A DNA stretch of 64,000 nt, taken from contig NZ_JARXRN010000025.1 in the NCBI RefSeq assembly GCF_029888045.1, positions 90,343 through 154,342 on the forward strand, read 5' to 3'. Of the stretch, positions 5,238 to 44,173 are shown one piece after another. The notes under the pieces were generated by a model. It saw nothing but the letters and a program-made list of their open reading frames with translations. It was not told the origin of the DNA and ran no database searches. How positions within the stretch are numbered: position 1 is the first letter of the stretch; every line of letters begins with the position of its first letter. A program made the translations under genes and the position numbers. This stretch comes from Luteimonas rhizosphaericola (GTDB lineage Bacteria; Pseudomonadota; Gammaproteobacteria; Xanthomonadales; Xanthomonadaceae).

Positions 5238-7387
5238 CCACCACGCTCCCGCTCTTTCCCGAAGGCCAGCCCGTCGACCCGACGGCCGCTTCCGCCGCGC
5301 GCGCCCCGAACGACCCGCGCGAACGTAGCGACCAACCCGAAGCGCAACCGTCCGAAACATCGCGCCCCACCAGCCTCCTGCAGCAACTCGCCAGGGCCGG
5401 TGCCCTGCGCACCCTCGACCACGCCCTCGCCCAGAGCCTGCGCCGGCTCGATCCGGACACGCCCGACACCGTCCTCGCCGCCGCCGCGCTCGCCTCGCTC
5501 GCCGTCGCCTCCGGCCATGCCGGCTTCAACCCCGCCGATCCCCGGCGCCTCGTCGACACGGACATCGACTGGCCCGCTCCCGATGCCTGGCGCGAAGCCC
5601 TGCGGCATTCCCGTTGGGTCGCGCTCCCGGACACCGGCGACGCCGAATCCGCCCCCGACGCCCCGCTCGTCTACGAGCACGGCCTCGTCTACCTGCGCCG
5701 CTACCGCGAATACGAACGCCGCCTCGCCGCCGGCCTACACCGCATCGGCAGCGCCGCGATCGCTTCGCCCGCGCCATCCCGTCCAGGCCGCACGGAGGCC
5801 CATGCCCCGGCGCCTTCTCTTCCGCTGTTCACAGGGGAAGATGCTCGACGGGCAGATGGCAGCAGCGCTGTGCACCCCACCGAAGACCTCCAGTCCCAGG
5901 CCATCGCCGCCGCGCAACGACACCCCCTCCTGCTCGTCACCGGCGGCCCCGGCACCGGCAAGACCACCACCATCACCCGCCTGCTGCTGGCGCTCGTCGC
6001 CCAGGCCGACGCCGCCGGCACGCCGCCGCCGCGCATCGCCCTGGCCGCGCCCACCGGCCGCGCCGCCGAGCGCATGGCCGAAAGCGTGCGCAACGCCCTC
6101 CAGGCCCTGCCCGCGCGCGGCGTCGACCCCGCGCTCGCCGCCCGCCTGCCCACCACCGGCACCACCCTGCACCGCCTGCTCGGCACCATTCCCGACTCGC
6201 CCGCCTTCCGCCACCACGCCGACAACCCGCTGCCGTTCGACGTGGTGGTGGTGGACGAAGCCTCGATGATCGACCTGCCGCTGATGGCCAAGCTGGTCGA
6301 AGCCGTGCCCGAAGGCGCGCGCCTGGTCCTGCTCGGCGACCCCGACCAGCTGCCCTCGGTGGAAGCCGGCGACGTGCTCGCCGGCATCCTCGCCGCCGCC
6401 GACCGCGTCGCCACATCTCCCACCGCCGTGGCTGCCACCTCTCCCACCACTCCCGCTGTCACCACTCCCGCTGTCACCTCTCCCGCTGTCACCACTCCCG
6501 CTGTCACCACTCCCGCTGTCACCTCTCCCGCTGTCACCTCTCCCGCAAGCGGGAGAGGTCGCGCCGAAGGCGCGGGTGAGGGCGCTCTCCCATCAGCCAC
6601 CCCCGCCTTCCCCGCCCACCACATCCACCTCACCCGCAACTACCGCCAGAGCGCCACGCTCGATCTCGCGCCCCTCGCCAGCGCCGTACGCGAAGGCGAC
6701 AGCGCCAACGCCCTGTCCCTGCTCCGCAGCGGCCAGCTCTCCGGCGTGCACTTCCACGAAGACGACATCGATCCTCTGCAATCCCACCGCGACCACCTGC
6801 TCGAACACTGGACCGCACTCGCCGACACCCGCGACCCCGCCGACGCCCTCGCCCGCGCCGCGCGCCTGCGCGTCCTTACCGCCGTGCGCGAAGGCCCGCA
6901 GGGCGCCCGCACCCTCAACGCCCGCATCGAGGACCTGCTGGCCGGCACCCGTCGCGGCGCCGGCCCCGCGTCCACCGCCGGCCGCCATTTCCACGGTCGC
7001 CTGCTGCTCATCACGGAGAACAGCTACCGCCACCGCCTGTTCAACGGCGACATCGGCATCTGCCTCGACGACGACGGCGGCACTCTCATGGCCTGGTTCC
7101 CCGGCGACGACCCGCAGCACCCGCGCCCCTTCCATCCCGCCGCGCTGCCCGCGCACGACAGCGCCTTCGCCATGACCGTGCACAAGGCCCAGGGCAGCGA
7201 GTTCGACGCCCTCTGGCTGGTGCTGCCGGCGCGCGACAACCGCGTGCTGTCGCGCGAGCTGGTCTACACCGGCATGACCCGCGCGCGCAGCGTCCTGCAC
7301 CTGGCCGGGAGCGCCGACGTCCTCGCGCAGGCGCTCGCCCGACAGACCCGACGATGGTCGGGCCTGGGACATCGCCTCGGCGGATAG
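5234..7387 (+). CDS. recD: RecD subunit of exonuclease V (5'-3' helicase)
   Basis: This 717-residue superfamily I DNA helicase is the fast 5'-3' motor of RecBCD. Walker A GGPGTGKTTT lies near residues 237-246 and the DEAS Walker B (VVVDEASMID) near 337. LTRNYRQ lies near 461, and the C-terminal motif TVHKAQGSEFDALWLVLPARDNR near 645-665 precedes the final motif YTGMTRAR. The start overlaps the recB stop. Two inserts are unusual: a variable stretch before the P-loop (about 178-215) and a PAVTT/PAVTS repeat linker at residues 407-436 that runs into a translated REP (SPASGRGRAEGAGEG) before LTRNYRQ. The helicase core is otherwise intact, so the linker is probably tolerated as a surface loop. Confidence 0.96.
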   Translation: MTTTLPLFPEGQPVDPTAASAARAPNDPRERSDQPEAQPSETSRPTSLLQQLARAGALRTLDHALAQSLRRLDPDTPDTVLAAAALASLAVASGHAGFNPADPRRLVDTDIDWPAPDAWREALRHSRWVALPDTGDAESAPDAPLVYEHGLVYLRRYREYERRLAAGLHRIGSAAIASPAPSRPGRTEAHAPAPSLPLFTGEDARRADGSSAVHPTEDLQSQAIAAAQRHPLLLVTGGPGTGKTTTITRLLLALVAQADAAGTPPPRIALAAPTGRAAERMAESVRNALQALPARGVDPALAARLPTTGTTLHRLLGTIPDSPAFRHHADNPLPFDVVVVDEASMIDLPLMAKLVEAVPEGARLVLLGDPDQLPSVEAGDVLAGILAAADRVATSPTAVAATSPTTPAVTTPAVTSPAVTTPAVTTPAVTSPAVTSPASGRGRAEGAGEGALPSATPAFPAHHIHLTRNYRQSATLDLAPLASAVREGDSANALSLLRSGQLSGVHFHEDDIDPLQSHRDHLLEHWTALADTRDPADALARAARLRVLTAVREGPQGARTLNARIEDLLAGTRRGAGPASTAGRHFHGRLLLITENSYRHRLFNGDIGICLDDDGGTLMAWFPGDDPQHPRPFHPAALPAHDSAFAMTVHKAQGSEFDALWLVLPARDNRVLSRELVYTGMTRARSVLHLAGSADVLAQALARQTRRWSGLGHRLGG
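6452..6541 (+). repeat. Six tandem 15-bp units in recD
   Basis: The units are CCCGCTGTCACCACT or CCCGCTGTCACCTCT, exactly adjacent, at 6452, 6467, 6482, 6497, 6512 and 6527. A degenerate unit precedes them. Fifteen bp keeps the frame, so each unit adds five residues (PAVTT or PAVTS). The unit looks like an amplified left arm of the REP that follows, because CTCTCCCGC is shared. Confidence 0.93.
6537..6582 (+). repeat. REP palindrome in recD
   Basis: The arms CCTCTCCCGC (6537-6546) and GCGGGAGAGG (6549-6558) are perfect inverted repeats around AA. A second small hairpin (GCGCCGAAGGCGC) and GGTGAGGG follow. This is the usual shape of a Xanthomonadaceae-type REP, and it is read through in frame as SPASGRGRAEGAGEG. 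Confidence 0.85.
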
Positions 7388-10641: not shown

Positions 10642-11879
10642 TGTCGCGGCACAGCCTGCGCAAGCGTGTCGAGGTCGCGTTCGCGCTGTGCGTGGTCGGG
10701 CTCAGCGTGGCCTGGGGGTTCGCGTTCTACGGCGCCATCCGCTTCAGCGAAGACCGGGTGCTGGCCAACCAGCTCCGGCACGCCGCCGAGCGCTATCCCG
10801 ACCTGTCGCTGAGCCTGCGCGGCTACGAGGACGCCGCGAGCCTGCCCGAACCGCTGCGGGACTGGGCGGCGCACGGGCCGGACGAAGGCACGTACGAGTT
10901 CGTGTCCGAGGAATTGCACGTGGCGGTGGTCCCGGCCGACAACCCGCAGGGGCGCGCCTTCGTGGTGTTCGATGTCGCCGGGATCGAGGCCGCCTCGTCC
11001 GAGGACTGGTGGTGGCTGCTCGTCATCACCGGCGTGGTGGGCGTGCTCGGCGCGCTGGGCTTCGGGCTCGGGGTGCTGGTGATGCGCCGGGCGATCGCGC
11101 CGGTCAGGCAGCTGGCCGACGTGGTCGCGGGCATCGACCTGGAACACCTGTCGGCCGGGGACCACAAGCTCATCGAGTCCGGCCGCTTCGGACGCGACGA
11201 GGTGGGCCTGCTCGCCGGCACCATCGAGAAGACGCTCGAGCGCATCAGCGCCTTCGTGGTGCGCGAGCGCGACTTCACCGGCTCCGCCAGCCACGAGCTG
11301 CGCACGCCGATCACCGTGATCACCGGCGCGATCGAACTGCTGGAGCAGGGCGAGCTGTCGGCCGAGGACGTCAAGGCGCTGGACCGCATCCGCCGCGCCA
11401 CGGCCGAGATGAAGTCCACGATCGAGATGTTCCTGTGCATCGCCCGCGAAGCCGACGACGGCCAGTACGGCGAGCGCTTCGGGGTGGCGCCGCTGGTGGA
11501 CCGGGCGATCGAGCAGCAGCGCTACCTGCTGGGTGGCAAGGGCGTCGACGTCGACGTCCATGTCGAAAGCCACGCCACGCCCGTCGTCCAGGGGCACCCG
11601 CAGGCGTTCCTGATCGCGGTCACCAACCTGGTGCGCAACGCGTTCGAGCACACGCCCGCCGGCCAGGGGCCGATCACCGTGCGCATCCGCGAACGCGACC
11701 TGCTGGTCACCAACCGGCGCAGCGGCGACGACGCCGGCGGGCCCACCCCGGACGGTGCCCCGGCGTCCAACGGCTACGGCCTGGGCCTCGGCATCGTGCA
11801 GCGGCTGTGCGAGCGCAACGGGTGGGAGTTCTCGCTGCAGGTGGACGAGGCGCGGGTGACGGCGTGTCTTTCCTGGTGA
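10641..11879 (+). CDS. Membrane sensor histidine kinase
   Basis: The 412-residue kinase starts at GTG 10641, with GGAGG at 10626-10630. TM1 is about residues 12-34 and a short periplasmic sensor covers about 35-120. TM2 is WWWLLVITGVVGVLGALGFG (about 126-148), followed by a HAMP linker. The HisKA motif SHELRTPI carries His218. The ATP-binding domain shows the N-box NLVRNAFEHT and the G-box GYGLGLGIVQRL. The classical D-x-G-x-G box is not evident between the N- and G-boxes, where the sequence reads VTNRRSGDDAGG. The ATP lid may therefore be shortened, as in some PhoQ-like or compact kinases. It is the partner of the regulator at 9937. Confidence 0.93.
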   Translation: MSRHSLRKRVEVAFALCVVGLSVAWGFAFYGAIRFSEDRVLANQLRHAAERYPDLSLSLRGYEDAASLPEPLRDWAAHGPDEGTYEFVSEELHVAVVPADNPQGRAFVVFDVAGIEAASSEDWWWLLVITGVVGVLGALGFGLGVLVMRRAIAPVRQLADVVAGIDLEHLSAGDHKLIESGRFGRDEVGLLAGTIEKTLERISAFVVRERDFTGSASHELRTPITVITGAIELLEQGELSAEDVKALDRIRRATAEMKSTIEMFLCIAREADDGQYGERFGVAPLVDRAIEQQRYLLGGKGVDVDVHVESHATPVVQGHPQAFLIAVTNLVRNAFEHTPAGQGPITVRIRERDLLVTNRRSGDDAGGPTPDGAPASNGYGLGLGIVQRLCERNGWEFSLQVDEARVTACLSW

Positions 11880-11973
11880 GCACCTGGGGAGGGGGATTGA
11901 ATTGATCTGCAGGAAGCGAAGGGCGGCTCTCGACCCAAAACGGACTGAAAGGAACCTATGGACTCAGAGCGAA

Positions 11974-12753
11974 TCAGTCGCGGAAGGGAACACCGGCAGT
12001 CCTGAAACAAAAGCGAATCATGTAATTACCAAAGCGCTGCTCTATCTCAGTAAGATTGTCGAAACCGCCGCCTGGTCGAAAGCTTGCGGGTATGCCGCTT
12101 CCCAACAGTTTGGCTCTAGCAAGGACACCCCCGGATACATTGAAGGCATTGCAATAAAAGCGCATCCGCAGTGTTTCCTCTAAGGGCAAGGCAGCGTAAG
12201 CAGTCTCATACTCTGCAATCTTCAGCCAAATCTTGTCGTATGGATGCAAGCTGTCAACGAACTTTGACAGACGTTGGTCCGTGAGGTTATGAATCAGATG
12301 GTTGTGTGCGAACTCATTTCGAATCTTTCTCAGGTTTGTGGCGTTAATTGCCTGTTCGTGCGTAATCCATCCGAGCCCAACGCAAACTAGAATCCTTTGT
12401 GAAAATGTTGATAACGGCCCATTAGACCCGAAATAGTCTTGCTGGGACTTGCTTGACTTCAGCGACCAATAGTTGGTTAGGCAACGTCGGAGCACATCTT
12501 CTAGGAACGATGCAGCCAAGACGCAAAAAGTCCTCGAATCACTGTCATGCAGAAAGTCAGTGAGTGATTCGGCCTCCGAAGCGATATTCGCCTCAATCTC
12601 GTTAGCTTTCCTTACTTCGACATAGCTATCCTTCAGGGTTTGCTCAAGAATTTCGACCGCCCTTGCCTGTAGAGAGAACGCTACGTTGTTGTCTGTTGCA
12701 AGCATAAAGAAGCTCGAGCGAGGCCTAGCCCATGTTAGTCCAATCTTGATCAC
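11974..12753 (-). CDS. MltR-like protein of unknown function
   Basis: This 259-residue soluble, helix-rich protein has clearly lower GC and different codon use from its neighbours. The segment NGPLSTFSQRILVCVGLGWI followed by IRNEFAHN resembles the MltR (mannitol operon repressor) fold, in which GPLG...R..L...LG.I precedes an R-x-E-x-x-H-like helix. Such proteins are often orphan genes in genomic islands with no link to mannitol. The called start is GTG at 12753; ATG at 12705 (MLATDNN) is equally possible and neither has a strong SD. It lies on the same strand as the nuclease-like gene at 12863-14350, 109 bp downstream of it. Its role in the island is unknown. Confidence 0.65.
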   Translation of the reverse strand: MIKIGLTWARPRSSFFMLATDNNVAFSLQARAVEILEQTLKDSYVEVRKANEIEANIASEAESLTDFLHDSDSRTFCVLAASFLEDVLRRCLTNYWSLKSSKSQQDYFGSNGPLSTFSQRILVCVGLGWITHEQAINATNLRKIRNEFAHNHLIHNLTDQRLSKFVDSLHPYDKIWLKIAEYETAYAALPLEETLRMRFYCNAFNVSGGVLARAKLLGSGIPASFRPGGGFDNLTEIEQRFGNYMIRFCFRTAGVPFRD

Positions 12754-12862
12754 CTTACGGGTGCGACAAGGCTTTCGTTGCTGGATCCAAGTGCGGCTCG
12801 ATTGTCTCTCGCGCCGCGTCCTCCTCCCGCCGCTGGTGGATCCATTCCACCAGAGCCGTGGA

Positions 12863-14350
12863 TTAGGGATATTTCACAGTTGACGCCGAAGGCTTGTTGT
12901 CGGACCGGCCATCGATCAGGACGATATTCTTGGCCTTGTCGATCTTCAGGTCTTGCATGATCTTCTTGACCCGCGTCCATTCACTGTCAGTGAAGTAGAG
13001 GATCACCGTGATGGACGACGACGTGTCGTTGGCCTTTTCGTAGACTTCCACTTGGTTCTGCAAGTTGGTTCTCAACTTGCTGTTACGCGCCAGCTTGAAC
13101 TCCACCAGGGTTTTGTCCGCACTGCCTTCGGACACCTTGTAATCCACCGGTCCTCGACCGTTGTTGACCTCACGGTTGACGTCCATCCGGGAAGCGAACC
13201 AAGTTAGGCGGTAAAGAAGTTGGAGATGGGCTTCCTGTGTAATGGGCCTGTCGTTGATGTAAAAGATCCGCCATCCGTCCTTGTGCTCGATGACGTTTTT
13301 CAAGAAGTTGACCCGCGCCATACTCTCGGTGAACGAGTTTCCGCCGGTGTAGAAGGCGGTACCTTCCAGGTGCTCTCTGACCAACCTGGACACCTCGTCA
13401 ACGAACTGTGCCTGAGTGTCGGCTACCTTTCTCTTGCTGGTCCGGTGCGCCTCGCTGGCGGCGTCTTCCTTGGCCCGGATGAAGTGATCAAGGAGGACCG
13501 GGAATTGCTCCACGGTCTGCGCCGCCAAGCGCTTTCGATCCTGGTCGGTCGCGCCCTCGGCCAAACGAGACATGAAGTAGGAGTCGATCTGGTTCCGCAA
13601 CTGCTGATTCGGGATGGAGTTGTAGACATCTTCGATGCCATCCAGCAGGTCGCCGCGATTGATCCATGCCTCGTCTCTGGTCAGCATGTCCTTCGGCGTC
13701 AGGATCACGTAGTCGCCGTTGATAAAGGGCAGCTCGTAGCGGCCCGGAACCCAACGCTTGGCGTCTTGGTTAAAGGCTACGCGATTGACGCCCACAGTTC
13801 TCACAAACTCTGGCCGGAGGTGGTTCTTGGCGAAGGTCTGTGTGTATTCCAGCAGGAACTGCTTGATCAAGTTGGTGACAAAATCGCTGAGGTGATCCCG
13901 TCCTACGCCTTCGCTCAACAGGCAAAGCTTTTCCAAGTGGCTGCTCTTGGTGATTTTCTCTGCGCCAAAGTCGCGAAAGATGTGATGGAGGTTCTTATGC
14001 AGCGTGTTCGCGAACTTAGCCCCCAAGCCGCTGCCACTGTTGCCTGAACGGCTAAACCCAAGCCAGTTCTGCTTGACCTCGGCGAAGCGGAACCACTGAT
14101 CGATATGCGCCTGCGTGAGCATGCCAGTGGCGGATACGTCGCGGAGAAACTTCAGGTAGTCAATGATCTGCTCATGCAAGCTTTGGTAGATCGCGTTCTT
14201 GCTGTCGAATAGGAGGAATGGATCGATGAAGAGCGGCAGGTCGTTGACCAACGATACGTTGAACGCGCCGTAGGCCTCCAAGGTCGCCTTGTCTACCTCG
14301 AAGAAGTCTGAGAAGTAGATTCCCACGCGCCCCGCCGGACTAGCTCGCAT
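12863..14350 (-). CDS. Putative PD-(D/E)XK nuclease protein of an accessory island
   Basis: The 495-residue protein starts at ATG 14350 with SD AGGAG about 10 nt upstream; the frame extends to a TTG at 14374. The N-terminal 300 residues (GIYFSDFFEVD, SLVNDLPLFIDPF) have no recognisable catalytic motif. The C-terminal 120 residues show a PD-(D/E)XK-like pattern: GRGPVDYKVSE, then KTLVEFKLA with the E-x-K pair, then a basic helix region. The local context is lower in GC than the genome. The protein is probably a DNA- or RNA-cleaving factor, perhaps of a defence system with the NERD-helicase upstream and the MltR-like gene downstream. The nuclease assignment is by motif only; the N-domain is not recognised. 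Confidence 0.6.
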   Translation of the reverse strand: MRASPAGRVGIYFSDFFEVDKATLEAYGAFNVSLVNDLPLFIDPFLLFDSKNAIYQSLHEQIIDYLKFLRDVSATGMLTQAHIDQWFRFAEVKQNWLGFSRSGNSGSGLGAKFANTLHKNLHHIFRDFGAEKITKSSHLEKLCLLSEGVGRDHLSDFVTNLIKQFLLEYTQTFAKNHLRPEFVRTVGVNRVAFNQDAKRWVPGRYELPFINGDYVILTPKDMLTRDEAWINRGDLLDGIEDVYNSIPNQQLRNQIDSYFMSRLAEGATDQDRKRLAAQTVEQFPVLLDHFIRAKEDAASEAHRTSKRKVADTQAQFVDEVSRLVREHLEGTAFYTGGNSFTESMARVNFLKNVIEHKDGWRIFYINDRPITQEAHLQLLYRLTWFASRMDVNREVNNGRGPVDYKVSEGSADKTLVEFKLARNSKLRTNLQNQVEVYEKANDTSSSITVILYFTDSEWTRVKKIMQDLKIDKAKNIVLIDGRSDNKPSASTVKYP

Positions 14351-34404: not shown

Positions 34405-34448
34405 GGGCGCCACGCATGATTGCCGGCACCGCCTGCGCACAGCCCCCA

Positions 34449-35114
34449 ATGGACGAAATCCTGCTGGTCGAAGACGACCATATGCTCGGGCGCGCGCTCA
34501 CCGCGGCGCTGGCCCAGGAGGGCTGGCGCGTGGTGCATTGCGAGGACGCGGCCGCCGCGCGCGCGGTGCTGATCGACCACGCCTTCGTCGCCGTGCTGCT
34601 CGACCTCGGCCTGCCGCAGGGCTCCGGGCTCGACGTGCTCGCCGCGATGCGCGCGCGCTACGATCCCACGCCGGTGCTGGTGATCACCGCGCGCGACCAG
34701 CTCAGCGACCGCGTGCGCGGGCTCGACGCCGGCGCCGACGACTACATCGTCAAGCCGTTCCAGCGCGACGAGATGCTGGCGCGGCTGCGCGCGGTGCTGC
34801 GCCGCAGCCGCGGCGCGGTGACGCCGATGCTGCACTGGCGCGACGTCGAGATCGATCCGGCCGCGCGCGTGGTCAGCCGCGGCGGCGAGCGCGTCGCGCT
34901 GAGCGCGAACGAACTGCGCATCCTGCTGACGCTGTTCGAGGCGCGCGGGCGCGTGCTCGGCCGCGAGCAGCTGCAGGCGCGGCTGTACGGCAGCGACGGC
35001 GGCGTGGGCAGCAACACGGTGGCGGTCTACGTGCACCAGCTGCGGCGCAAGCTGGGCGACGGCGTGGTCGTCACCGAACACGGCCACGGCTACCGCGCCG
35101 GGGACGAGTCGTGA
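34449..35114 (+). CDS. OmpR-family response regulator (PmrA/QseB-like)
   Basis: The 221-residue protein is counted from ATG 34449 (MDEILLVEDDH), the usual length; ATG 34416 would add 11 residues. The receiver has Asp52 in LLDLGLPQGSG and lysine in YIVKPF. The winged helix ends in a typical VTEHGHGYRAG hairpin. The GTGA overlap with the kinase gene at 35111-35114 shows coupling. The PmrA-box-like site upstream suggests that it controls itself and the divergent SDR/MipA/transporter operon; this is an inference. Confidence 0.93.
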   Translation: MDEILLVEDDHMLGRALTAALAQEGWRVVHCEDAAAARAVLIDHAFVAVLLDLGLPQGSGLDVLAAMRARYDPTPVLVITARDQLSDRVRGLDAGADDYIVKPFQRDEMLARLRAVLRRSRGAVTPMLHWRDVEIDPAARVVSRGGERVALSANELRILLTLFEARGRVLGREQLQARLYGSDGGVGSNTVAVYVHQLRRKLGDGVVVTEHGHGYRAGDES

Positions 35115-36499
35115 TCCGCGCGCCCCGGTCGTTGCGCACGCGGCTGCTGGCCGCGCTGGCGATCGTGCTGTTCACCGGCTGGGCCGGCTGGTTCGCGCTG
35201 CAGTATGTGCAGATGTCCAAGCGCCAGGTGGGCGACCTCGACGGCATGATCCGCAACGTCGCCGAGCAGATCCTGCAGTCGCTGCCGCAGGACATCACCG
35301 GCGCCGCGCAGCAGCCGCGGCGCTTCGAGCTCGACCTGGAGGAGAAGAAGACCCTCGGCAAGTTCGACCTGCTCGCGTTCCAGGCCTGGGACCTCGGCGC
35401 CGGGCGGCGGCTGGTGTCGTCGCGTTCCGCGCCGGCGCAGGCGATGGTGGACGACTTCGAGGACGGCTTCACCTCGCAGTCGATCGACGGCGTGCCCTGG
35501 CGGGTGTACGCGGTGCGCGACCTGGGCGGCCGCGTGCAGGTGCAGGTGGGCATCCCCGAAGCGGCGGTGCACATGGAGATGAAGCGCTGGTTCCGCTCCA
35601 GCCTCGGCACCGCGCTGGCGCTGCTGCTCGCACTGGGGCTGGCGGTGTGGCTGGTGATCGAGTGGTCGCTGCGGCCGGTGGCGCGGCTGGGCGAGGCGCT
35701 CAATGCGCGCGCGCCGCTGGATTTCGCGCCGCTGCCCGATGCCGGCCTGCCGAGCGAGGTGGTGCCCCTGGTGCAGGGCTTCAACCGGCTGCTCGAGCGG
35801 CTGGCGCAGGCGCTGCAGCACGAACGCGAGTTCCTCGGCGAGGCCGCGCACGAACTGCGCACCCCGCTGGCCGCGCTGCTTGCGCAGGCCCAGGTGCTGC
35901 AGCACGCCGGCGACCGCGAGGAGGCGCGCCTGGCGCTGTCGGAGCTGATCGCCGGCATCGAACGCACCTCGCGGCTGGCGCAGCAGCTGCTCGACGCGGC
36001 GCGGGTGGAGGCGGGCGGCGGCGCCCGCGCGACCGACCTGGACCTGGCCCTGGTCGCTGGCATGGTCGCCGACGAGTTCGCCCAGGTGGCAACGCGCGAA
36101 GGCCGCAGGCTCGAACTGGAACTGCGCCACGCGCCGGTGCGCGGCGACATCGACGATCTCGGCATCCTGGTGCGCAACCTGCTCGACAACGCCCTGCGCC
36201 ACGGCGGCGACGGCGCGCGCGTGCGCCTGTCCACCGACGTGGTCGCCGAGGGCGACGCGCGCATCGGCGTGCTGCGGGTGGCCGACGATGGTCCCGGCAT
36301 CCCCGACGCCGACCGCGAACGCGTGTTCGAGCGCTTCTACCGCGGTGCCAACGGCCACCGCAGCGCGGGCATCGGCATGGGCCTGTCGCTGGTGCAGCGC
36401 GTGGTCTCCGCCCACGGCGGCGCGGTGCGCTGCACCGCGGGCCTCGGCGGGCGCGGCTGCGCGATCGAGGTGCGGCTGCCGCTGCGGGGGCAGGACTGA
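35111..36499 (+). CDS. Sensor histidine kinase (QseC/TctE-like)
   Basis: The 462-residue kinase starts at GTG 35111. TM1 is near 10-32 (LLAALAIVLFTGWAGWFALQYVQ). The periplasmic 2CSK_N-like sensor domain covers about 33-160, and TM2 is TALALLLALGLAVWLVIEWSL. A HAMP domain follows, then HisKA with His247 in AAHELRTPL. The ATPase domain has NLLDNALRHG, DDGPGIP and GIGMGLSLV. All catalytic boxes are intact. It pairs with the regulator at 34449. The ligand is unknown; 2CSK_N kinases respond to metals, carboxylates or quorum-type signals. Confidence 0.94.
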   Translation: MIRAPRSLRTRLLAALAIVLFTGWAGWFALQYVQMSKRQVGDLDGMIRNVAEQILQSLPQDITGAAQQPRRFELDLEEKKTLGKFDLLAFQAWDLGAGRRLVSSRSAPAQAMVDDFEDGFTSQSIDGVPWRVYAVRDLGGRVQVQVGIPEAAVHMEMKRWFRSSLGTALALLLALGLAVWLVIEWSLRPVARLGEALNARAPLDFAPLPDAGLPSEVVPLVQGFNRLLERLAQALQHEREFLGEAAHELRTPLAALLAQAQVLQHAGDREEARLALSELIAGIERTSRLAQQLLDAARVEAGGGARATDLDLALVAGMVADEFAQVATREGRRLELELRHAPVRGDIDDLGILVRNLLDNALRHGGDGARVRLSTDVVAEGDARIGVLRVADDGPGIPDADRERVFERFYRGANGHRSAGIGMGLSLVQRVVSAHGGAVRCTAGLGGRGCAIEVRLPLRGQD

Positions 36500-36521: not shown

Positions 36522-37922
36522 CTACTGCCCCCACTTCCCGCTGCGCCGCATCACTCCCCAGTTGTGCTTGCGGCGCGAGAACCACTGCCACATCCCGCGG
36601 CAGCGCCACAGGGTGTTGAGCTGGCGGTAGCCGAGGTTCTCCAGCACCGCCATCGCGAACATCAGCAGCATGTCGCGCTTGCGCGCGTACACGCGGAACG
36701 ACAGGGTCTCCAGCAGCAGCCCGTTGACCGACAACAGGATGCCCATGCCGATCGCCACCAGCAGGAACACCACCAGCGCCGCGGAGGAGATCACGCCCAG
36801 GGCGAAGCCGCCGATCATCACCACGTAGCCGGCCAGCTCGATCAGTGGGCCGATCCACTCGAACACGGCCATGAACGGCCACGCCAGCAGGCCGGCCGCG
36901 CCCGCGCGCGGGCTCAGCGCCAGGCGCGCGTGCCGGGTCAGGCTCTCGGCCAGGCCGCGCTGCCAGCGGCTGCGCTGGCGGCCGAGCGTGCCCAGGTCCT
37001 CCGGCGCCTCGGTCCAGCAGATCGGGTCGGGCAGGTAGCGGATGCGATACGGGATGCGGCGCTCGCGGTGCCAGCGGTGCAGGCGCACCACCAGCTCCAT
37101 GTCCTCGCCGACGGTGGTGGTGCTGTAGCCGCCCACCGCCAGCACCCGCTCGCGGTTGAACAGGCCGAACGCGCCGGAGATGATCAGCACCGCGTTGAGC
37201 GGCGACCAGCCCAGGCGGCCGAGCAGGAACGCGCGCAGGTATTCGACGATCTGGAACCGCGCCACCCAGTTGCGCGGCAGTCCCGCGCGCACCAGGAAGC
37301 CGCCGCGCACCTCCGAGCCGTTGGCCAGGCGCACGGTGCCGCCGGCGGCCACGGTGCGCTCGTCCTCCAAGAACGGCTGCACCACGCGCAGCAGGCTGTC
37401 GCGCTGCAGGATGGAGTCGGCGTCGACCGCGCAGAACAACGTGTGGCGCGCGGCGTTGATGCCGGCGTTGAGCGCGTCGGCCTTGCCGCCGTTCTCCTTG
37501 TCGATCACCCGCAGGTTGGCGTAGCGCCGCGAGCGGTAGACCACGCGGATCGGCTTGTGCTCCAGCGTGCGCCGCATCGGCTCGGGATGCGGCACCAGCT
37601 CGAACTCCTCGCGCAGCACGTCGAGCGTGCGGTCGCGCGAGCCGTCGTTGATCACCACCACCTCGAAATCCGGGTACTGCAGCTGCAGCATCGAGCGCAC
37701 CGAAGTGCGGATGGTCGCCTCCTCGTTGTAGCCGGGCACCAGCAGCGAGATCGGCGGCTCCACGCCGAGGTATGGGGCCTCGTCGCCGAGCGCGCTGCGC
37801 TGGCGCATGTAGCCGCGCAGGCTGGCCATCGACAGCAGGTTGAGCGCCAGGTAGCCGCCGTTGAGCGCGAGGAAGTAGCCAATGAAGACCACCTGCGCCC
37901 ACCACAGCCAGCTGCCGCTCAC
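36522..37922 (-). CDS. Processive family-2 glycosyltransferase (polysaccharide synthase)
   Basis: The 466-residue membrane enzyme starts at GTG 37922, overlapping the upstream stop (GTGA, 37919-37922). An N-terminal TM segment is followed by the GT2 domain: VPGYNEE near 60, VINDGSRDR near 88, AVDADS near 167, the acceptor-side acid in TVGEDMEL near 272 and QRSRWQRG near 318. This is the D,D,D,Q(R/Q)xRW signature of NodC/PgaC/BcsA-like synthases. Several C-terminal helices would form the translocation channel. No PilZ domain is present. It is the last gene of a five-gene cluster that also encodes an outer-membrane TPR-barrel. Confidence 0.92.
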   Translation of the reverse strand: MSGSWLWWAQVVFIGYFLALNGGYLALNLLSMASLRGYMRQRSALGDEAPYLGVEPPISLLVPGYNEEATIRTSVRSMLQLQYPDFEVVVINDGSRDRTLDVLREEFELVPHPEPMRRTLEHKPIRVVYRSRRYANLRVIDKENGGKADALNAGINAARHTLFCAVDADSILQRDSLLRVVQPFLEDERTVAAGGTVRLANGSEVRGGFLVRAGLPRNWVARFQIVEYLRAFLLGRLGWSPLNAVLIISGAFGLFNRERVLAVGGYSTTTVGEDMELVVRLHRWHRERRIPYRIRYLPDPICWTEAPEDLGTLGRQRSRWQRGLAESLTRHARLALSPRAGAAGLLAWPFMAVFEWIGPLIELAGYVVMIGGFALGVISSAALVVFLLVAIGMGILLSVNGLLLETLSFRVYARKRDMLLMFAMAVLENLGYRQLNTLWRCRGMWQWFSRRKHNWGVMRRSGKWGQ

Positions 37923-39004
37923 GGATGCCGCTCCGCGATCGCGCGCCGCAGCGCGTCGCGGCCGTAGCGGTCGGCGACGGTGTCGGCGATGCGCTCCACC
38001 GCGGCGCGGTCGAACCCGGGCTGCGCGGCGATCGCGTCGGCCGCTTCCTGGCGCACGGCCCAGTCGGGATCGGGCAGCAGGGCGAGCAGCTGGTCGAGGT
38101 CCCTGAGCGCGGCCTGCTTGCCCAGCGCCTTGAGCGCGGCCAGGCGCACGCCCGCGTCGGCATCGGCCAGTGCCTGCGACAGCCGCGGCCGGTCGGCCCC
38201 GTCGCGCAGCGAGCCGACCACCTGCAGGGCGGCCTGGCGCAGGGCGGGATCGTGGGATCCGGGCGGGCCATCGAGCACCGCGCGGGCCCAGCCGGCGAGC
38301 ACGGCCGGATCCGCCCACTGCGTGAGGGGCGCGATCCGCCGCTGCGCGGCTGCCGGCGCGGACTGCAGCGCGTCGAGCAGCGGTAGCGACACCGCCGCGC
38401 GTCCGGCCAGCTGGCACAGCGCGGCGACGCGCTGCGGCGTCCAGTCCTGGCGCGCCACCGCGACCGGCAGCACGTCGCGCATCGCCCGCGGCGCGTCGAT
38501 GGTGACCAGCACTTCGGCCGCCGCCAGCGCGAGGAAGGGATTGTCGTGGCGCAGGAAGCGCGCCACCACGTCCCAGTGCACGGCGTCGGCGAGTTCGCGC
38601 AACACCGCCAGCGCGAGCAGGCGCAGGTGGATGCCGCGGCGGCGCAGCAGGTCCAGCGCGAACCGGTCCAGCGCGTACGCCTCCAGCACGCGGTTGAGGC
38701 GCGCATGCGCCTCGCCGCGCAACTGGCGCTGGGTGCGGCTCCACAGCAGCAGGAACCACAGCCGCTGCTGCGCGCGCGGCGCGGGCCACGGCGGCGGCGC
38801 GCAGTCGGAGAGCGAGGCCTCGGCCAGGCGTGGCCGCCAGTCGGCGTCGAAGCCGCGGCGCCGTGCCAGCTGACGGCTGCCGAGTTCGGCCAGCACCAGC
38901 ACCTGGCCCATGGTCAGCAGCGTCAACACCGCCAGCGCGGCGGTGACGTACACGGCCCAGCGCAGGACCGGATCGACCAGGGCGATGGCGAGCCAGTCGG
39001 GCAT
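37919..39004 (-). CDS. HEAT-repeat inner-membrane protein of the polysaccharide cluster
   Basis: The 361-residue protein has an N-terminal transmembrane segment (about 14-38, LRWAVYVTAALAVLTLLTMGQVLVLAEL). A long array of HEAT-like helical repeats follows, for example LALAAAEVLVTIDAPRAMRDVLPVAV, LRQAALQVVGSLRDG and VRLAALKALGKQAALRDLDQLLALL. HEAT arrays bind proteins, so it may scaffold the synthase to the outer-membrane exporter or to a regulator. The start lies 3 bp after the TPR-barrel gene stop and its stop overlaps the GT gene start. No enzyme motif was found. Confidence 0.85.
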   Translation of the reverse strand: MPDWLAIALVDPVLRWAVYVTAALAVLTLLTMGQVLVLAELGSRQLARRRGFDADWRPRLAEASLSDCAPPPWPAPRAQQRLWFLLLWSRTQRQLRGEAHARLNRVLEAYALDRFALDLLRRRGIHLRLLALAVLRELADAVHWDVVARFLRHDNPFLALAAAEVLVTIDAPRAMRDVLPVAVARQDWTPQRVAALCQLAGRAAVSLPLLDALQSAPAAAQRRIAPLTQWADPAVLAGWARAVLDGPPGSHDPALRQAALQVVGSLRDGADRPRLSQALADADAGVRLAALKALGKQAALRDLDQLLALLPDPDWAVRQEAADAIAAQPGFDRAAVERIADTVADRYGRDALRRAIAERHP

Positions 39005-39007
39005 GGC

Positions 39008-40174
39008 TCAGAACGCCCGCCGCACGCCCAGCTGCAGCCAGCGACGGTCGTGGAAATCGCCCTGGCGCACGTAGCCCACGCCCCACTGCAGCGACCAGGT
39101 GGACGACAGGCCGTGGCGTCCCTGCAGCGCGAGCGCCCGCACCCGGCTGGCGACGATCCCGGTGCCCTGCTGCACGTCCTCGCTGCCCGCGGTCAGCCGC
39201 AGGCCGATCACGTCGCGCTCGCCGTAGTAGCGGTCGACCGCGGCGTCGTGGCCGTTGACGCGTTCGCCGTCGACGTCGGTGCGGTTGAAGGTATAGCCCA
39301 GCCGCCAGTCGCCGACGTACTGCTCCAGCGCCAGCGCCAGCCGTTCGACGGTCGCCTCCGGGTAGCGCGTGCGGCGCAGGCCGGCGGCCAGCACCGTGCC
39401 GCCTTCGAACGCGTGCTGCATGCGCACGTCGCCGAACCAGCGCGGCTGGAAGTCCGAGCCGGGCCAGGCGCCGCCATCGAGCTGCAGCGTCCAGCGCGGC
39501 GCCACCGGCAGCGCGATCCCCGCCTCCAGGCCGCTGTCGACCAGTCCGAAGCGGCGTTCGCGCGCGGCGGCGACGTACCAGCCGCGCCCGTCGCCGCGGC
39601 CGGACACGTCGAGGCGCTGGCCCTGCCAGGCCTCGAGGCCCTGCGTCAGCCATTCGTGGCGCAGGCCGAGGCCGATCTCGCGCATGCGGGGCGCAACTGG
39701 ATCTCCTCCGTCCACCAGGCGATCGCCTGCGGGACGTTCCGGCGCTGCCGCCTGCATCGGCGCGGGCGCAGGGTCCGGCGTCATCTGCCGGCGCAGGTCG
39801 TCCACGCCCGGATACCCGGGCGTGATCGCCTCCAGCCGTGCCACGCTCGCCTGCGCCGCGGCGCGGTCGCCCGACCAAAGCTGCGCCTGGGCGCGGCCGA
39901 ACAGGTAGTCGGCATTGCCGGGTTCGCGCGCCAGCAGCGCGTCGTACAGCGGCAGCGCCTCGGCCGCGCGCTGCTGCCAGGCCAGCACCCGCGCCAGCTG
40001 GAAGCGCGCGGCATCGTCGTCGGGTGCCACCGCCAGCCGCGCGCGCAGCAGCCGCTCGGCGCCCGCCCAGTCCTGCGCCGCCAGGCGCGCGTCCACCTCG
40101 GGCCCGACCTGCGCGGCGGCCTGCGTGCCCGCCAGCGCCAGCAGCGCGGCCAGCACGCTGCGCGCGACCCTCAT
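39008..40174 (-). CDS. TPR protein with YaiO-like outer-membrane beta-barrel
   Basis: The 388-residue protein has a signal peptide (MRVARSVLAALLALAGTQAAAQ). TPR-like repeats cover about 23-130 (LAAQDWAGAERLLRARLAVAPDDDAARFQLARVLAWQQRAAEALPLYDALLAREPGNADYLFGRAQAQLWSG, given in outline). A Pro/Ala linker leads to a beta-barrel of about 220 residues ending LQLGVRRAF. TPR plus barrel is the layout of PgaA/BcsC-type export proteins, and the barrel looks like the YaiO family. The start overlaps the stop of the receiver gene (ATGA, 40171-40174). Confidence 0.88.
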   Translation of the reverse strand: MRVARSVLAALLALAGTQAAAQVGPEVDARLAAQDWAGAERLLRARLAVAPDDDAARFQLARVLAWQQRAAEALPLYDALLAREPGNADYLFGRAQAQLWSGDRAAAQASVARLEAITPGYPGVDDLRRQMTPDPAPAPMQAAAPERPAGDRLVDGGDPVAPRMREIGLGLRHEWLTQGLEAWQGQRLDVSGRGDGRGWYVAAARERRFGLVDSGLEAGIALPVAPRWTLQLDGGAWPGSDFQPRWFGDVRMQHAFEGGTVLAAGLRRTRYPEATVERLALALEQYVGDWRLGYTFNRTDVDGERVNGHDAAVDRYYGERDVIGLRLTAGSEDVQQGTGIVASRVRALALQGRHGLSSTWSLQWGVGYVRQGDFHDRRWLQLGVRRAF

Positions 40175-40557
40175 GCCGCCCTCCGCAGCAGCCGCCGCAG
40201 CCGCGCCAGCACCTCTTCGGGCTGGAACGGCTTGGTCACGTAGTCGTCGGCGCCGAGGTCGAGCGCGCGCACGATGTCCACCTCGCGCGCCTTGGCGGTG
40301 AGCATCAGCACCGGCACGTCGCGCCAGCCGGGCTGCGCGCGCAGCCGCTCCACGATCTCGATGCCGTCGTGGTAGGGCAGCATGATGTCCAGCACCACCG
40401 CGTGCGGCGGCGGCTGCTCCAGCCGTGCCAGCGCCTCGCGCCCGTCGGCGGCGTGGTCCACCGTGAAGCCTTCGCGCTGGAACAGGAAGCGCAGGATGTA
40501 GGCGATGTCCTCCTCGTCCTCGACCACCAGCACCCGTGGTGCGGCCCGTTCGTTCAT
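40171..40557 (-). CDS. Single-domain response regulator (CheY-like)
   Basis: The 128-residue receiver has phosphoacceptor Asp57 in VVLDIMLPYHDG, acidic residues in VVEDEEDIA, and the conserved lysine in YVTKPF. It has no output domain, so it would act by protein contact, perhaps on the HEAT-repeat protein or the synthase, or as a phosphorelay step. The start overlaps the stop of the hybrid kinase gene (40554-40557) and its stop overlaps the next start, so the five genes are in one transcript. Confidence 0.94.
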   Translation of the reverse strand: MNERAAPRVLVVEDEEDIAYILRFLFQREGFTVDHAADGREALARLEQPPPHAVVLDIMLPYHDGIEIVERLRAQPGWRDVPVLMLTAKAREVDIVRALDLGADDYVTKPFQPEEVLARLRRLLRRAA

Positions 40558-43373
40558 CGCGTCGGATCTCCTTGTGTCGTGGCCCGCGGAGGCCAGTTGC
40601 GCAGGTAGTCGCCGATCACCGCCGCCAGGGTGGCGCCGCTGTGGCGCGACTTCACCAGCCGTCGCAGCACCAGGCCGCTGTCGGCGCCGGGCACCACCGC
40701 GTCGGTGTCCAGCGCGGAGAAGATGATCGCGAGCGTCGGCGGGCTGGCGGCCGCGAGTTCGGCCAGCAGTTCGCTGCCGTCGCCGTCGGGCAGCATCAGG
40801 TCGAGGATGACCAGGTCGTGGTGGCGGGCCGCCAGTTCGCGGCGCGCCTCGGCGAGGCTGCCCGCGCCGTGCAGCCGCAGCGCCTCGTCCTCCAGCAGGT
40901 GCGCGACCAGGGTGCGCAGGTCGGCGTCGTCCTCCACGTGCAGCACCTGCGCGGGCGCTCCGGAACCGCGCAGGCAGGCGCGCACCGCCTCGACCACGCG
41001 CCCCGGATCCAGCGGCTTGTGCAGCCAGTCGACGATGCCCACCGCGCCGCCGCTCACCGCCTCGCGCTCGGGTGCCGGCGGCTGCACGCCCAGCGCCAGG
41101 ATCGGCAGGTGGCGGTAGGCCTGCTGGCTGCGCAGCGCGCGCACGAACGCCAGCCCGTCCTCGTCGGGCAGCGCGAGGTTGACCGTGAGCGCGTACACCG
41201 GGGTGGAGGCCAGCACCTGTCGCGCCTGGGCGGCGGAGGCGGCCACCACGGTCGCGTGGCCGTGCTGTTCCAGCAGCGCCGCAAGCTGCGTCGCCGCGGC
41301 CGCGTCGCCATCCACCAGCAGCACGCGCTGGCGGCCCTCGGCGTCGACCGGCGGGACCGCATTGCGCCGCGCCAGCGGCAGGCGCACGAAGAAGCAGGTG
41401 CCGTGGTCGGTCTGGGTATCGAAGCCGATGCTGCCGCCGAGCTGCTCGACCAGCGAGCGGGTGATCGCCAGCCCGAGGCCGGTGCCGCCGCGCGTGCGCA
41501 CGTCGGACGAATCGGCCTGGGCGAAGCGTTCGAACACGCGCCCGCGGAACGCCTCGGGTATCCCGGCGCCGCGGTCGGCGACCGAGACCTCGACGTGGTC
41601 GTCGCGCAGCGCCAGCACCACCACCACCTCCTCGCCCGGCGGCGAGTGCTTGATCGCGTTCGACAGCAGGTTCGCCATCACCTGGGCGAAGCGGTCCGGG
41701 TCCACGTCCACCTCGGCGTCCTCGCCGGGCACCAGGTGCACGCGCACGCCGAACTCGCCGGCGTAGCCGCCGATCTGCTCGATCGCCTGCGCCAGCAGCG
41801 GCCGCAGCGCCAGCGGCTGCAGGTTCAGCACCAGGCGGCCGCTCTCCAGCTTCTCGATGTCGAGGATGTCGTTGATCAGCCGCACCAGCCGCTCGCTGTT
41901 CTTGTGCGCGATCTCCAGCAGCGGCCGCATCGCTTCGGGCACCTCGCCGGCCATGCCGCCGGTGACCATCGACAGCCCGCCGCGGATCGCGGTCAGCGGC
42001 GTGCGCAGCTCGTGGCTGACGGTGGAGATGAATTCGGCCTTCATGCGTTCGACCTGGCGCCGCGCGGAGACGTCCACCGCCACCGCGAGCACCAGCGGCT
42101 GCTGGTCGGACAGCGCCATCGGCCGCTTCAGCAGTTGCAGCCAGCGTTCCCGACCGTGGACGTCGGCCACCGCCAGCTCGGGGCGGCGCAGTTCCGAGTC
42201 CTCGCGCAGCAGCGCGGTATCGCCCTCGAGCAGCGGCGCCAGCAGGTCGCCGCCGGGCAGGTCCTCCACGCGCTGGCCTTCGACCTGCCCGGGCTGCAGG
42301 CCCAGCAGGGCCGCGAAGGCCTGGTTGCACAGCAGCACCCGGCCGCCGGCGTCGCGCACGAAGATCAGGTTCTCGTCGGCGTCCACCACGCTGCGCAGGA
42401 ACGCCTGCTGGTCGCGCAGGCGTCGGCGCGCGCGCGCCGCCTCGGTGACGTTGCGCACGATGGCCAGGCTTTCGCCGCCGTCGCTGCGCGCGATCCGCAC
42501 CTCGTGGTCGCGACCGTTGTCGTCGTGCCAGTCGAACGCGACCAGGCTGCGGTCCGGATGGCGGGCGAGGTCGGCGAACGCGCCGGCCAGCCCGGCCGGT
42601 ACTTCGCCGCGCCGGCCGCTGGCCTGCGACAGCACCTTGATGCGGCCGTCGGCATGCAGTTCGTACAGGTCGTCGGGCACCGCGCGCAGCAGCGCGGCCT
42701 GGCGCGCCTCGCCGGCACTGGCGATGCGCGCCAGCTGCGCCTGGCGCCGCAGGGTGCGGTTCATCGCGCGCAGGAACCACACCATCAGCAGCGCGATCAC
42801 CAAGCTGCCGCCCAGCACCTGCCAGCGGCCGCGTTCCAGGATCGAGGCGGCCAGCGCGGTCCGCGCGGCCAGCAACGCGCGTTCCTCCGACTCGAGCGCG
42901 CCCAGTTCGGCGCGCAGCGCGTCCATCGTTTCCTTGCCGCCGGCCATGGCCATCACCTGCGCCGCCTGTTCCAGCCCGAGCCGGTCGCGCCGGGCGACAT
43001 TGGCCGCCGCGATCTCCAGCCGGCGGGCGATGTCCGCGTCCAGCGTGCCCAGCCACGCCTCGCGACCGCGGCCGGCCAGCCTGCGTCCGAGTTCGCCGCG
43101 CAGCGCCGCCACGCGCGCGCGACCGTCGCGGTAGGGCGCGAGATACGCCGGATCCGCGGTCAGCACGTAGCCGCGCGAGCCGGTCTCCACGTCCTGCAGC
43201 GCCGAGAACATGCCCTGCACCACGGTGATCAGCTCGAGGCTGTCGGCGATCGCGGCGTTGGTGTCGAGCAGCACCTCCTGGGTGCGCTTGCCCTGCCAGG
43301 CCATCAGGCTCAGCAGCACCAGCGCGGCGGCGAAGCCGAGGTTGTGCAGGGTCGTCCCGGACGGGAGGCGCAA
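40554..43373 (-). CDS. CHASE3-PAS hybrid histidine kinase with two receivers, the first degenerate
   Basis: The 939-residue protein starts at TTG 43373 after GGTGA, because a stop lies just upstream. TM1 is about 12-27. A CHASE3-like extracytoplasmic domain covers about 35-180 (QDVETGSRGYVLTADPAYLAPY), and TM2 about 185-203. Two PAS-type regions lie near 220-430. HisKA has His454 in SHELRTPL. The ATPase domain has ANLLSNAIKHS, DRGAGIP and GGTGLGLAI. Receiver 1 (about 684-800) has Asn732 where the phospho-Asp should be (TVNLALPDEDG), so it cannot accept phosphate normally. Receiver 2 (about 813-930) has Asp858. It is the probable sensor controlling the downstream synthase cluster. Confidence 0.93.
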   Translation of the reverse strand: MRLPSGTTLHNLGFAAALVLLSLMAWQGKRTQEVLLDTNAAIADSLELITVVQGMFSALQDVETGSRGYVLTADPAYLAPYRDGRARVAALRGELGRRLAGRGREAWLGTLDADIARRLEIAAANVARRDRLGLEQAAQVMAMAGGKETMDALRAELGALESEERALLAARTALAASILERGRWQVLGGSLVIALLMVWFLRAMNRTLRRQAQLARIASAGEARQAALLRAVPDDLYELHADGRIKVLSQASGRRGEVPAGLAGAFADLARHPDRSLVAFDWHDDNGRDHEVRIARSDGGESLAIVRNVTEAARARRRLRDQQAFLRSVVDADENLIFVRDAGGRVLLCNQAFAALLGLQPGQVEGQRVEDLPGGDLLAPLLEGDTALLREDSELRRPELAVADVHGRERWLQLLKRPMALSDQQPLVLAVAVDVSARRQVERMKAEFISTVSHELRTPLTAIRGGLSMVTGGMAGEVPEAMRPLLEIAHKNSERLVRLINDILDIEKLESGRLVLNLQPLALRPLLAQAIEQIGGYAGEFGVRVHLVPGEDAEVDVDPDRFAQVMANLLSNAIKHSPPGEEVVVVLALRDDHVEVSVADRGAGIPEAFRGRVFERFAQADSSDVRTRGGTGLGLAITRSLVEQLGGSIGFDTQTDHGTCFFVRLPLARRNAVPPVDAEGRQRVLLVDGDAAAATQLAALLEQHGHATVVAASAAQARQVLASTPVYALTVNLALPDEDGLAFVRALRSQQAYRHLPILALGVQPPAPEREAVSGGAVGIVDWLHKPLDPGRVVEAVRACLRGSGAPAQVLHVEDDADLRTLVAHLLEDEALRLHGAGSLAEARRELAARHHDLVILDLMLPDGDGSELLAELAAASPPTLAIIFSALDTDAVVPGADSGLVLRRLVKSRHSGATLAAVIGDYLRNWPPRATTQGDPTR

Positions 43374-43683: not shown

Positions 43684-43920
43684 ATGACACCCTACCGCGA
43701 TGCCGACGGTGATTCGGGCGTGGCCGCCTACGAAAGCGGCCCCGGATGGATCGTGGTGCGCTTCCACCGCGGCGGCACCTACCGCTACGACGACAGCCAT
43801 CCCGGACGCCTGCACGTGCTGGAGATGCAGCGCCTGGCCGCCGCCGGCAACGACCTCAACACCTACATCAACCGTCACGTCCGCGACGACTACGCGCAAC
43901 GCATCACGTCGCCCGGATAA
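43684..43920 (+). CDS. Small KTSC-like protein
   Basis: The 78-residue protein has the pattern YRDADGDSGVAAYESG, then IVVRFHRGGTYRYDD, then LHVLEMQRLAAAGNDLNTYINRHVRDDYA. This compact beta-rich unit resembles KTSC-type domains and is common as a stand-alone protein in Xanthomonadaceae. A GAGGA site lies about 10 nt upstream of ATG 43684. It is followed after 10 bp by the interspersed repeat at 43931. Function unknown. Confidence 0.8.
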   Translation: MTPYRDADGDSGVAAYESGPGWIVVRFHRGGTYRYDDSHPGRLHVLEMQRLAAAGNDLNTYINRHVRDDYAQRITSPG

Positions 43921-44138: not shown

Positions 44139-44173
44139 TTGACATAATTCGATGATTAGCTAATCATCGCAAC
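44139..44173 (+). promoter_or_regulatory. Leaderless-type promoter and operator of the SdpR-like gene
   Basis: TTGACA (44139-44144), 17 nt, AATCAT (44162-44167) and 6 nt precede ATG 44174. The perfect 18-bp palindrome GATGATTAGCTAATCATC (44151-44168) covers the spacer and the -10. There is no SD. This is strong evidence for autorepression. Confidence 0.72.

Follow-up and report, generated by a model that had tools for sequence, protein, structure and literature searches.

What kind of polysaccharide machine is encoded when a glycosyltransferase and an outer-membrane barrel share one run of genes with a sensor kinase and a regulator that has no output domain, and how would such a machine be controlled? 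This question is raised by positions 36522-43373, minus strand, of a 64,000-nucleotide stretch of the 3.9 Mb genome of Luteimonas rhizosphaericola, the whole stretch being called the window throughout. Five genes lie there in the order CHASE3 hybrid histidine kinase, receiver-only response regulator, tetratricopeptide-repeat (TPR) protein with a YaiO barrel, HEAT-repeat protein, and family 2 glycosyltransferase (GT2). The cassette would belong to a known kind, the synthase-dependent exopolysaccharide systems, with the control module as its new part. The full reading, i.e., a synthase-dependent exopolysaccharide machine with export through YaiO and a receiver that switches the GT2 through the HEAT protein, has in our judgment an even chance of being right.

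The five minus-strand genes were described in a preliminary description as tightly coupled, and their coordinates, junctions, and Pfam and NCBIfam domains confirm it: the kinase and receiver genes overlap by 4 bp, the receiver and YaiO genes by another 4 bp, a 3-bp gap separates YaiO from HEAT, and HEAT and GT2 again overlap by 4 bp. The kinase gene has a TTG start with AGGTGA in front of it.

The same arrangement is found well outside the window. A scan of genome contigs with the HEAT family alignment gave 47 loci, and in all 42 loci where 307 or more of the 361 HEAT residues are matched (L008-L049), kinase, receiver, YaiO, HEAT, and GT2 lie on one strand in this order, which is far from chance and bears out the earlier expectation that the five genes are regular neighbours. 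Judged by their record titles, the 42 loci comprise what we take to be 25 Pseudomonadaceae, 12 Halomonadaceae, and 5 Lysobacteraceae, so that the sample is uneven; among the named relatives in the scan, Luteimonas saliphila comes closest (HEAT 92%, GT2 97%). Some cassette genes are split in L023, L027, L029, and L049; in the last of these, from Halomonas olivaria, the breaks affect kinase, YaiO, and HEAT alike and may reflect joint decay or sequencing error. The kinase of L021 is truncated by a contig edge, and L050, where a contig edge falls inside HEAT and GT2 follows, stands outside the count.

Among 61 genomes closer to the host (37 from the genus, with our own among them, plus 24 from the order), GT2 (E ≤ 1e-60), YaiO, and full-length HEAT were each found in four, and these are the same four genomes; a fifth, G039, has two partial, weak HEAT matches. 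Within the genus the cassette is patchy, being present in 4 of 37 genomes. At larger distances, a GT2 search of 369 genomes of the class (E ≤ 1e-130) returned 11 matches, our own included, and at the ten other loci HEAT adjoins GT2 in every case, with the order receiver-YaiO-HEAT-GT2 in seven. A HEAT search of 398 genomes of the phylum (E ≤ 1e-12) returned 23 matches, 13 of which adjoin a matching GT2, 11 of these in the full four-gene order, and the remaining ten (L109-L118) are generic HEAT proteins. These ten, like four weak HEAT matches of the contig scan (L051-L054), are not counted as members because no matching GT2 was found in the retrieved stretch. With repeats merged and two genomes set aside (our own and G705, whose contig is that of L022), 15 of 19 distant loci have the four-gene order; the 19 come from fewer genera, with L066, L067, and L075 in a single genus and the pairs L101 and L102, L104 and L105, and L106 and L108 each in one. 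The exceptions are L070 (HEAT-GT2-YaiO, no receiver), L071 (no YaiO), L072 (YaiO-HEAT tail to tail with GT2, no receiver), and L103 (HEAT-GT2 alone). Downstream of the receiver-less cassette of L070 lies a gene for a sulfatase-family protein (11668-14046, plus strand), possibly a polymer-decorating transferase.

Kinase placement varies at the distant loci, and in several of them no kinase was found nearby; the kinase of L041 is of the GAF type in place of the CHASE3 type. The conserved unit is thus the four genes receiver-YaiO-HEAT-GT2, with an exchangeable kinase. Of the five-gene unit first proposed, the order stands in all 42 loci of the scan, and the CHASE3 kinase as a fixed member does not, since other lineages have a different kinase in its place or none that was found close to the cassette.

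Regarding the enzyme at the end of the cassette, the GT2 (36522-37922, minus strand, 466 residues, GTG start; Pfam Glyco_tranf_2_3) shows the broad marks of processive synthases, namely D, DxD, [GT]ED, QxxRW, and C-terminal membrane helices. The motifs ND, DxD, GED, and QRxRWQ are invariant in 21 aligned relatives, a G following ND in 20 of the 21, and the predicted fold is hyaluronan-synthase-like, with hyaluronan and cellulose synthases matching 385 and 365 model residues, respectively. Motifs and fold together place the enzyme among the processive type, as had been supposed, and suggest that it makes a polymer.

The putative exporter (39008-40174, minus strand, 388 residues) carries the Pfam domains TPR_19 and YaiO. 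Its barrel scores 121.7 bits against a cut-off of 32 with the NCBIfam model TIGR04390, and 66.2 bits against 23.9 with PF19413 of Pfam. The AlphaFold2 model (mean predicted local distance difference test 89.3, predicted template-modelling score 0.59) has fold matches in the PDB and a predicted 14 strands at residues 164-387, and the TPR region is predicted to be periplasmic. Among 31 aligned YaiO proteins, nine have no TPR part, and these nine come from Halomonas relatives; the Litchfieldella protein of L048 has it. Of the TPR-barrel pairing read earlier, the barrel is upheld by the family cut-offs, and the TPR part cannot be kept as a fixed component. A processive GT2 next to a YaiO family barrel nonetheless preserves the synthase-plus-exporter logic that had been proposed.

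The HEAT protein (37919-39004, minus strand, 361 residues; Pfam HEAT_2) has one N-terminal transmembrane helix followed by a HEAT-repeat solenoid. In a database search in which 7996 candidates were scored, 45 matched; 40 of these have about the length of the window protein and share 43-98% identity with it (the entry at 98% is possibly the window protein itself), after which there is a sharp drop to generic HEAT proteins, and the 40 define an orthologue family. In all 40 proteins lysine and arginine are more numerous on the C-terminal side of the helix than on its N-terminal side (means of 6.4 and 0.9, respectively, counting up to 25 residues on each side). Because positive charge lies after the helix, the positive-inside rule predicts a helix in the inner membrane and a cytosolic solenoid, in the compartment that also holds the receiver and the active site of the GT2. 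HEAT stands beside every examined GT2 of this clade.

The receiver (40171-40557, minus strand, 128 residues) consists of Response_reg alone in Pfam; it has the phosphorylation residues Asp57, Thr87, and Lys109 and no output domain, and is accordingly a receiver-only response regulator. In a redundant alignment of 57 relatives, 56 retain Asp57, 54 retain Thr87 (the other 3 have Ser), and 55 retain Lys109, and lengths of 126-149 residues leave no room for a DNA-binding domain. Trp78 and Tyr62, conserved in 49 and 47 of the 57, are residues that we presume to be unusual for receivers. Two relatives depart from the pattern and still head a full cassette: the receiver of L101 (6952-7389, minus strand) has Glu at the phospho-site and Arg for Lys, and that of L102 (9703-10146, minus strand) has Arg for Lys.

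The hybrid histidine kinase (40554-43373, minus strand, 939 residues) comprises, according to Pfam, a CHASE3 sensor (39-173), PAS, HisKA with His454, HATPase_c, and two Response_reg receivers, the first of them degenerate, with Asn732 at the phospho-site, and the second intact, with Asp858. The HisKA His is kept in all 41 aligned kinases. Eleven of the 41 are without both receivers; in the 30 having receiver 1 its Asp is always lost (Ser in 24, Asn in 5, Gly in 1), and the Asp of receiver 2 is kept in 30 of 30.

Taken together, these parts suggest a sequence of events in which the CHASE3 kinase would sense a periplasmic cue and phosphorylate the receiver, which, having no DNA-binding domain, would dock on the HEAT protein. 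The latter would be an accessory subunit of the GT2, possibly in the place that PgaD holds next to PgaC, and would alter either the activity of the synthase or its assembly with the exporter. The inner-membrane GT2 would then polymerise and extrude a sugar chain, which would probably cross the outer membrane by way of the YaiO barrel. The argument for this route is that a receiver without output needs a protein target, which is likely to be co-encoded, and that HEAT is tied both to the receiver operon and to the GT2, so that kinase to receiver to HEAT to GT2 is the simplest reading. Control by protein contact, as far as the sequences tell, fits the anatomy of the cassette.

Certain observations weigh against this route. 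Three cassettes have no receiver. In addition, an Hpt-REC-GGDEF gene lies directly upstream in 22 of the 25 Pseudomonadaceae loci (not in L017, L033, and L038; the count includes L028, cut by a contig edge), within a same-strand signalling cluster that also holds kinases and receivers (L022:3-5397 and its equivalents), Luteimonas deserti has a 7TM-GGDEF gene 71 bp downstream of GT2 (L009:12546-14243, plus strand), and in L073 a GGDEF-EAL gene (3466-5670, minus strand) follows GT2 on the same strand, after an intervening kinase-receiver pair. Among synthase-dependent polysaccharide systems, the two that have been studied most, cellulose and poly-N-acetylglucosamine (PNAG), are gated by cyclic dimeric guanosine monophosphate (c-di-GMP), and, since GGDEF genes adjoin cassettes, control by c-di-GMP, either by itself or in combination with the receiver, has to be reckoned with. 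The same synthase and exporter would in that case be controlled as in PgaCD or BcsA, with the receiver acting elsewhere, for example on a diguanylate cyclase, and HEAT being structural only; PgaC, of a type that binds c-di-GMP, is moreover the nearest named synthase compared. We regard this as unlikely, though a serious rival: the five proteins have no PilZ or GGDEF domain, the Stutzerimonas GGDEF protein used as a query had no full-length match in other loci (a differently built GGDEF protein, such as that of L. deserti, could be missed), and in 57 of 61 loci the receiver adjoins YaiO-HEAT-GT2 rather than a cyclase. The claim that the system is free of deacetylase, PilZ, and c-di-GMP parts holds for the cassette itself as regards PilZ, PgaB, and PgaD, and cannot be extended to its surroundings in general, where GGDEF or deacetylase genes adjoin some loci.

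Rather less probable still is that kinase and receiver act only on transcription of the operon, handing phosphoryl groups on to an unlinked partner and making no contact with the synthase. In favour of this are the ability of single-domain receivers to serve as phosphotransfer intermediates, the additional intact receiver of the window kinase, and an Hpt gene next to the cassette in L104; against it, the receiver stands first in the four-gene unit also at loci with no kinase nearby, and the altered phosphorylation residues of L101 and L102 fit a binding protein better than a relay. A similarly low likelihood is given to the proposal that the GT2 glycan stays in the envelope, as a lipid- or protein-linked glycan or a periplasmic glucan, with YaiO an unrelated outer-membrane protein, for the GT2 model is matched along a greater length by hyaluronan and cellulose synthases, QRxRW is invariant in 21 of 21, and in 59 of 61 loci, L071 and L103 being the exceptions, YaiO lies next to the HEAT-GT2 pair.

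Can the cassette be filed under a system that already has a name? The E. coli pgaABCD operon, for poly-β-1,6-N-acetylglucosamine, shares with it a TPR-barrel exporter and a processive GT2, and PgaC is the best-scoring NCBIfam synthase model for the window GT2 (29% identity over 286 residues). The scores stay well below the family cut-offs, at 141.1 bits against 422.3 for PgaC/IcaA (TIGR03937) and 26.5 bits against 366.65 for PgaA (TIGR03939). PgaB is not in the cassette, and its family PF14883 has no match in the whole genome (the E. coli control was positive); no PgaD family is among the Pfam matches of the five cassette proteins, and HEAT and the receiver stand in the place of PgaB and PgaD. 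Membership in the cellulose BcsABC systems was likewise rejected, as the five proteins have no PilZ or BcsB domain and the GT2 reaches 53.4 bits against 699.1 with TIGR03030 (CelA); compared with BcsABC, moreover, the modelled barrel has 14 strands.

In the E. coli locus yaiO-yaiX-yaiP-yaiS a YaiO barrel is also encoded near a GT2, and YaiP is 26% identical to the window GT2 over 227 residues, whereas the two YaiO proteins give no significant BLASTP match (best E 0.14). That locus further contains the deacetylase YaiS and the acyltransferase YaiX (interrupted by IS2), and neither HEAT nor receiver, so that the weak sequence match and different gene content speak against filing the cassette there. 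Hyaluronan synthases of solved structure are 17% identical to the GT2 and, to our knowledge, function without a HEAT partner. A literature search, to which subscription journals were largely out of reach, found no description of this cassette.

Tentatively, and with somewhat less assurance than for the window itself, the loci may represent a widespread, unnamed class of exopolysaccharide systems, with a four-gene core that extends beyond its own class of bacteria, interchangeable kinases, and a receiver that gates the synthase directly via HEAT. If this is true, a phosphorelay and protein contact take the role that c-di-GMP has for cellulose and PNAG, giving a second way to gate such machines, or a second input beside c-di-GMP, to which different kinases can be fitted. 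Proteins of Stutzerimonas, Halomonas, and Luteimonas that are at present recorded simply as "HEAT repeat domain-containing protein" or "glycosyltransferase" would then become one testable unit.

Other genes adjoin the cassette in particular lineages. A polysaccharide deacetylase-domain protein of 610-620 residues is encoded next to it in L017 (3528-5393, plus strand) and L107 (4214-6049, minus strand), which belong to remote lineages and whose proteins are 43% identical to each other. L066 (4951-9145) and L067 (10535-14704) have a second, convergent cluster encoding a GT2, a TPR protein whose match to the PgaA barrel is weak and falls short of the Pfam cut-off, and a 123-residue protein without a Pfam match. 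Crude gene clustering around L008-L050 found no flanking gene common to all three families, and the only other cross-family cluster, antisense frames aside, was an ExoD-family gene a few kb upstream, on the plus strand, in L038 (3216-3800; Pseudomonas) and in L044 (4798-5391) and L048 (4501-5238), both from Halomonas relatives; Pfam was run on the L038 and L044 genes.

In the window, no terminators were found around the cassette, and the sole promoter-like site (44139-44167, plus strand) lies ahead of a neighbouring ArsR-type gene. A recent foreign origin has no support, because the base composition of the cassette (GC 0.72-0.76 in 2-kb steps) resembles that of its flanks; in addition, a search of 72,556 plasmid records (E 1e-5) gave no match to the HEAT protein. 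Positions 34416-36499 (plus strand) encode a receiver plus winged-helix regulator and a sensor kinase, whose ends converge on the GT2 gene, and a comparable pair occupies the same place in L008. On the other side, a 78-residue reading frame without a Pfam match (43684-43917, plus strand) is divergent to the kinase gene and has a look-alike at L008:4984-5211.
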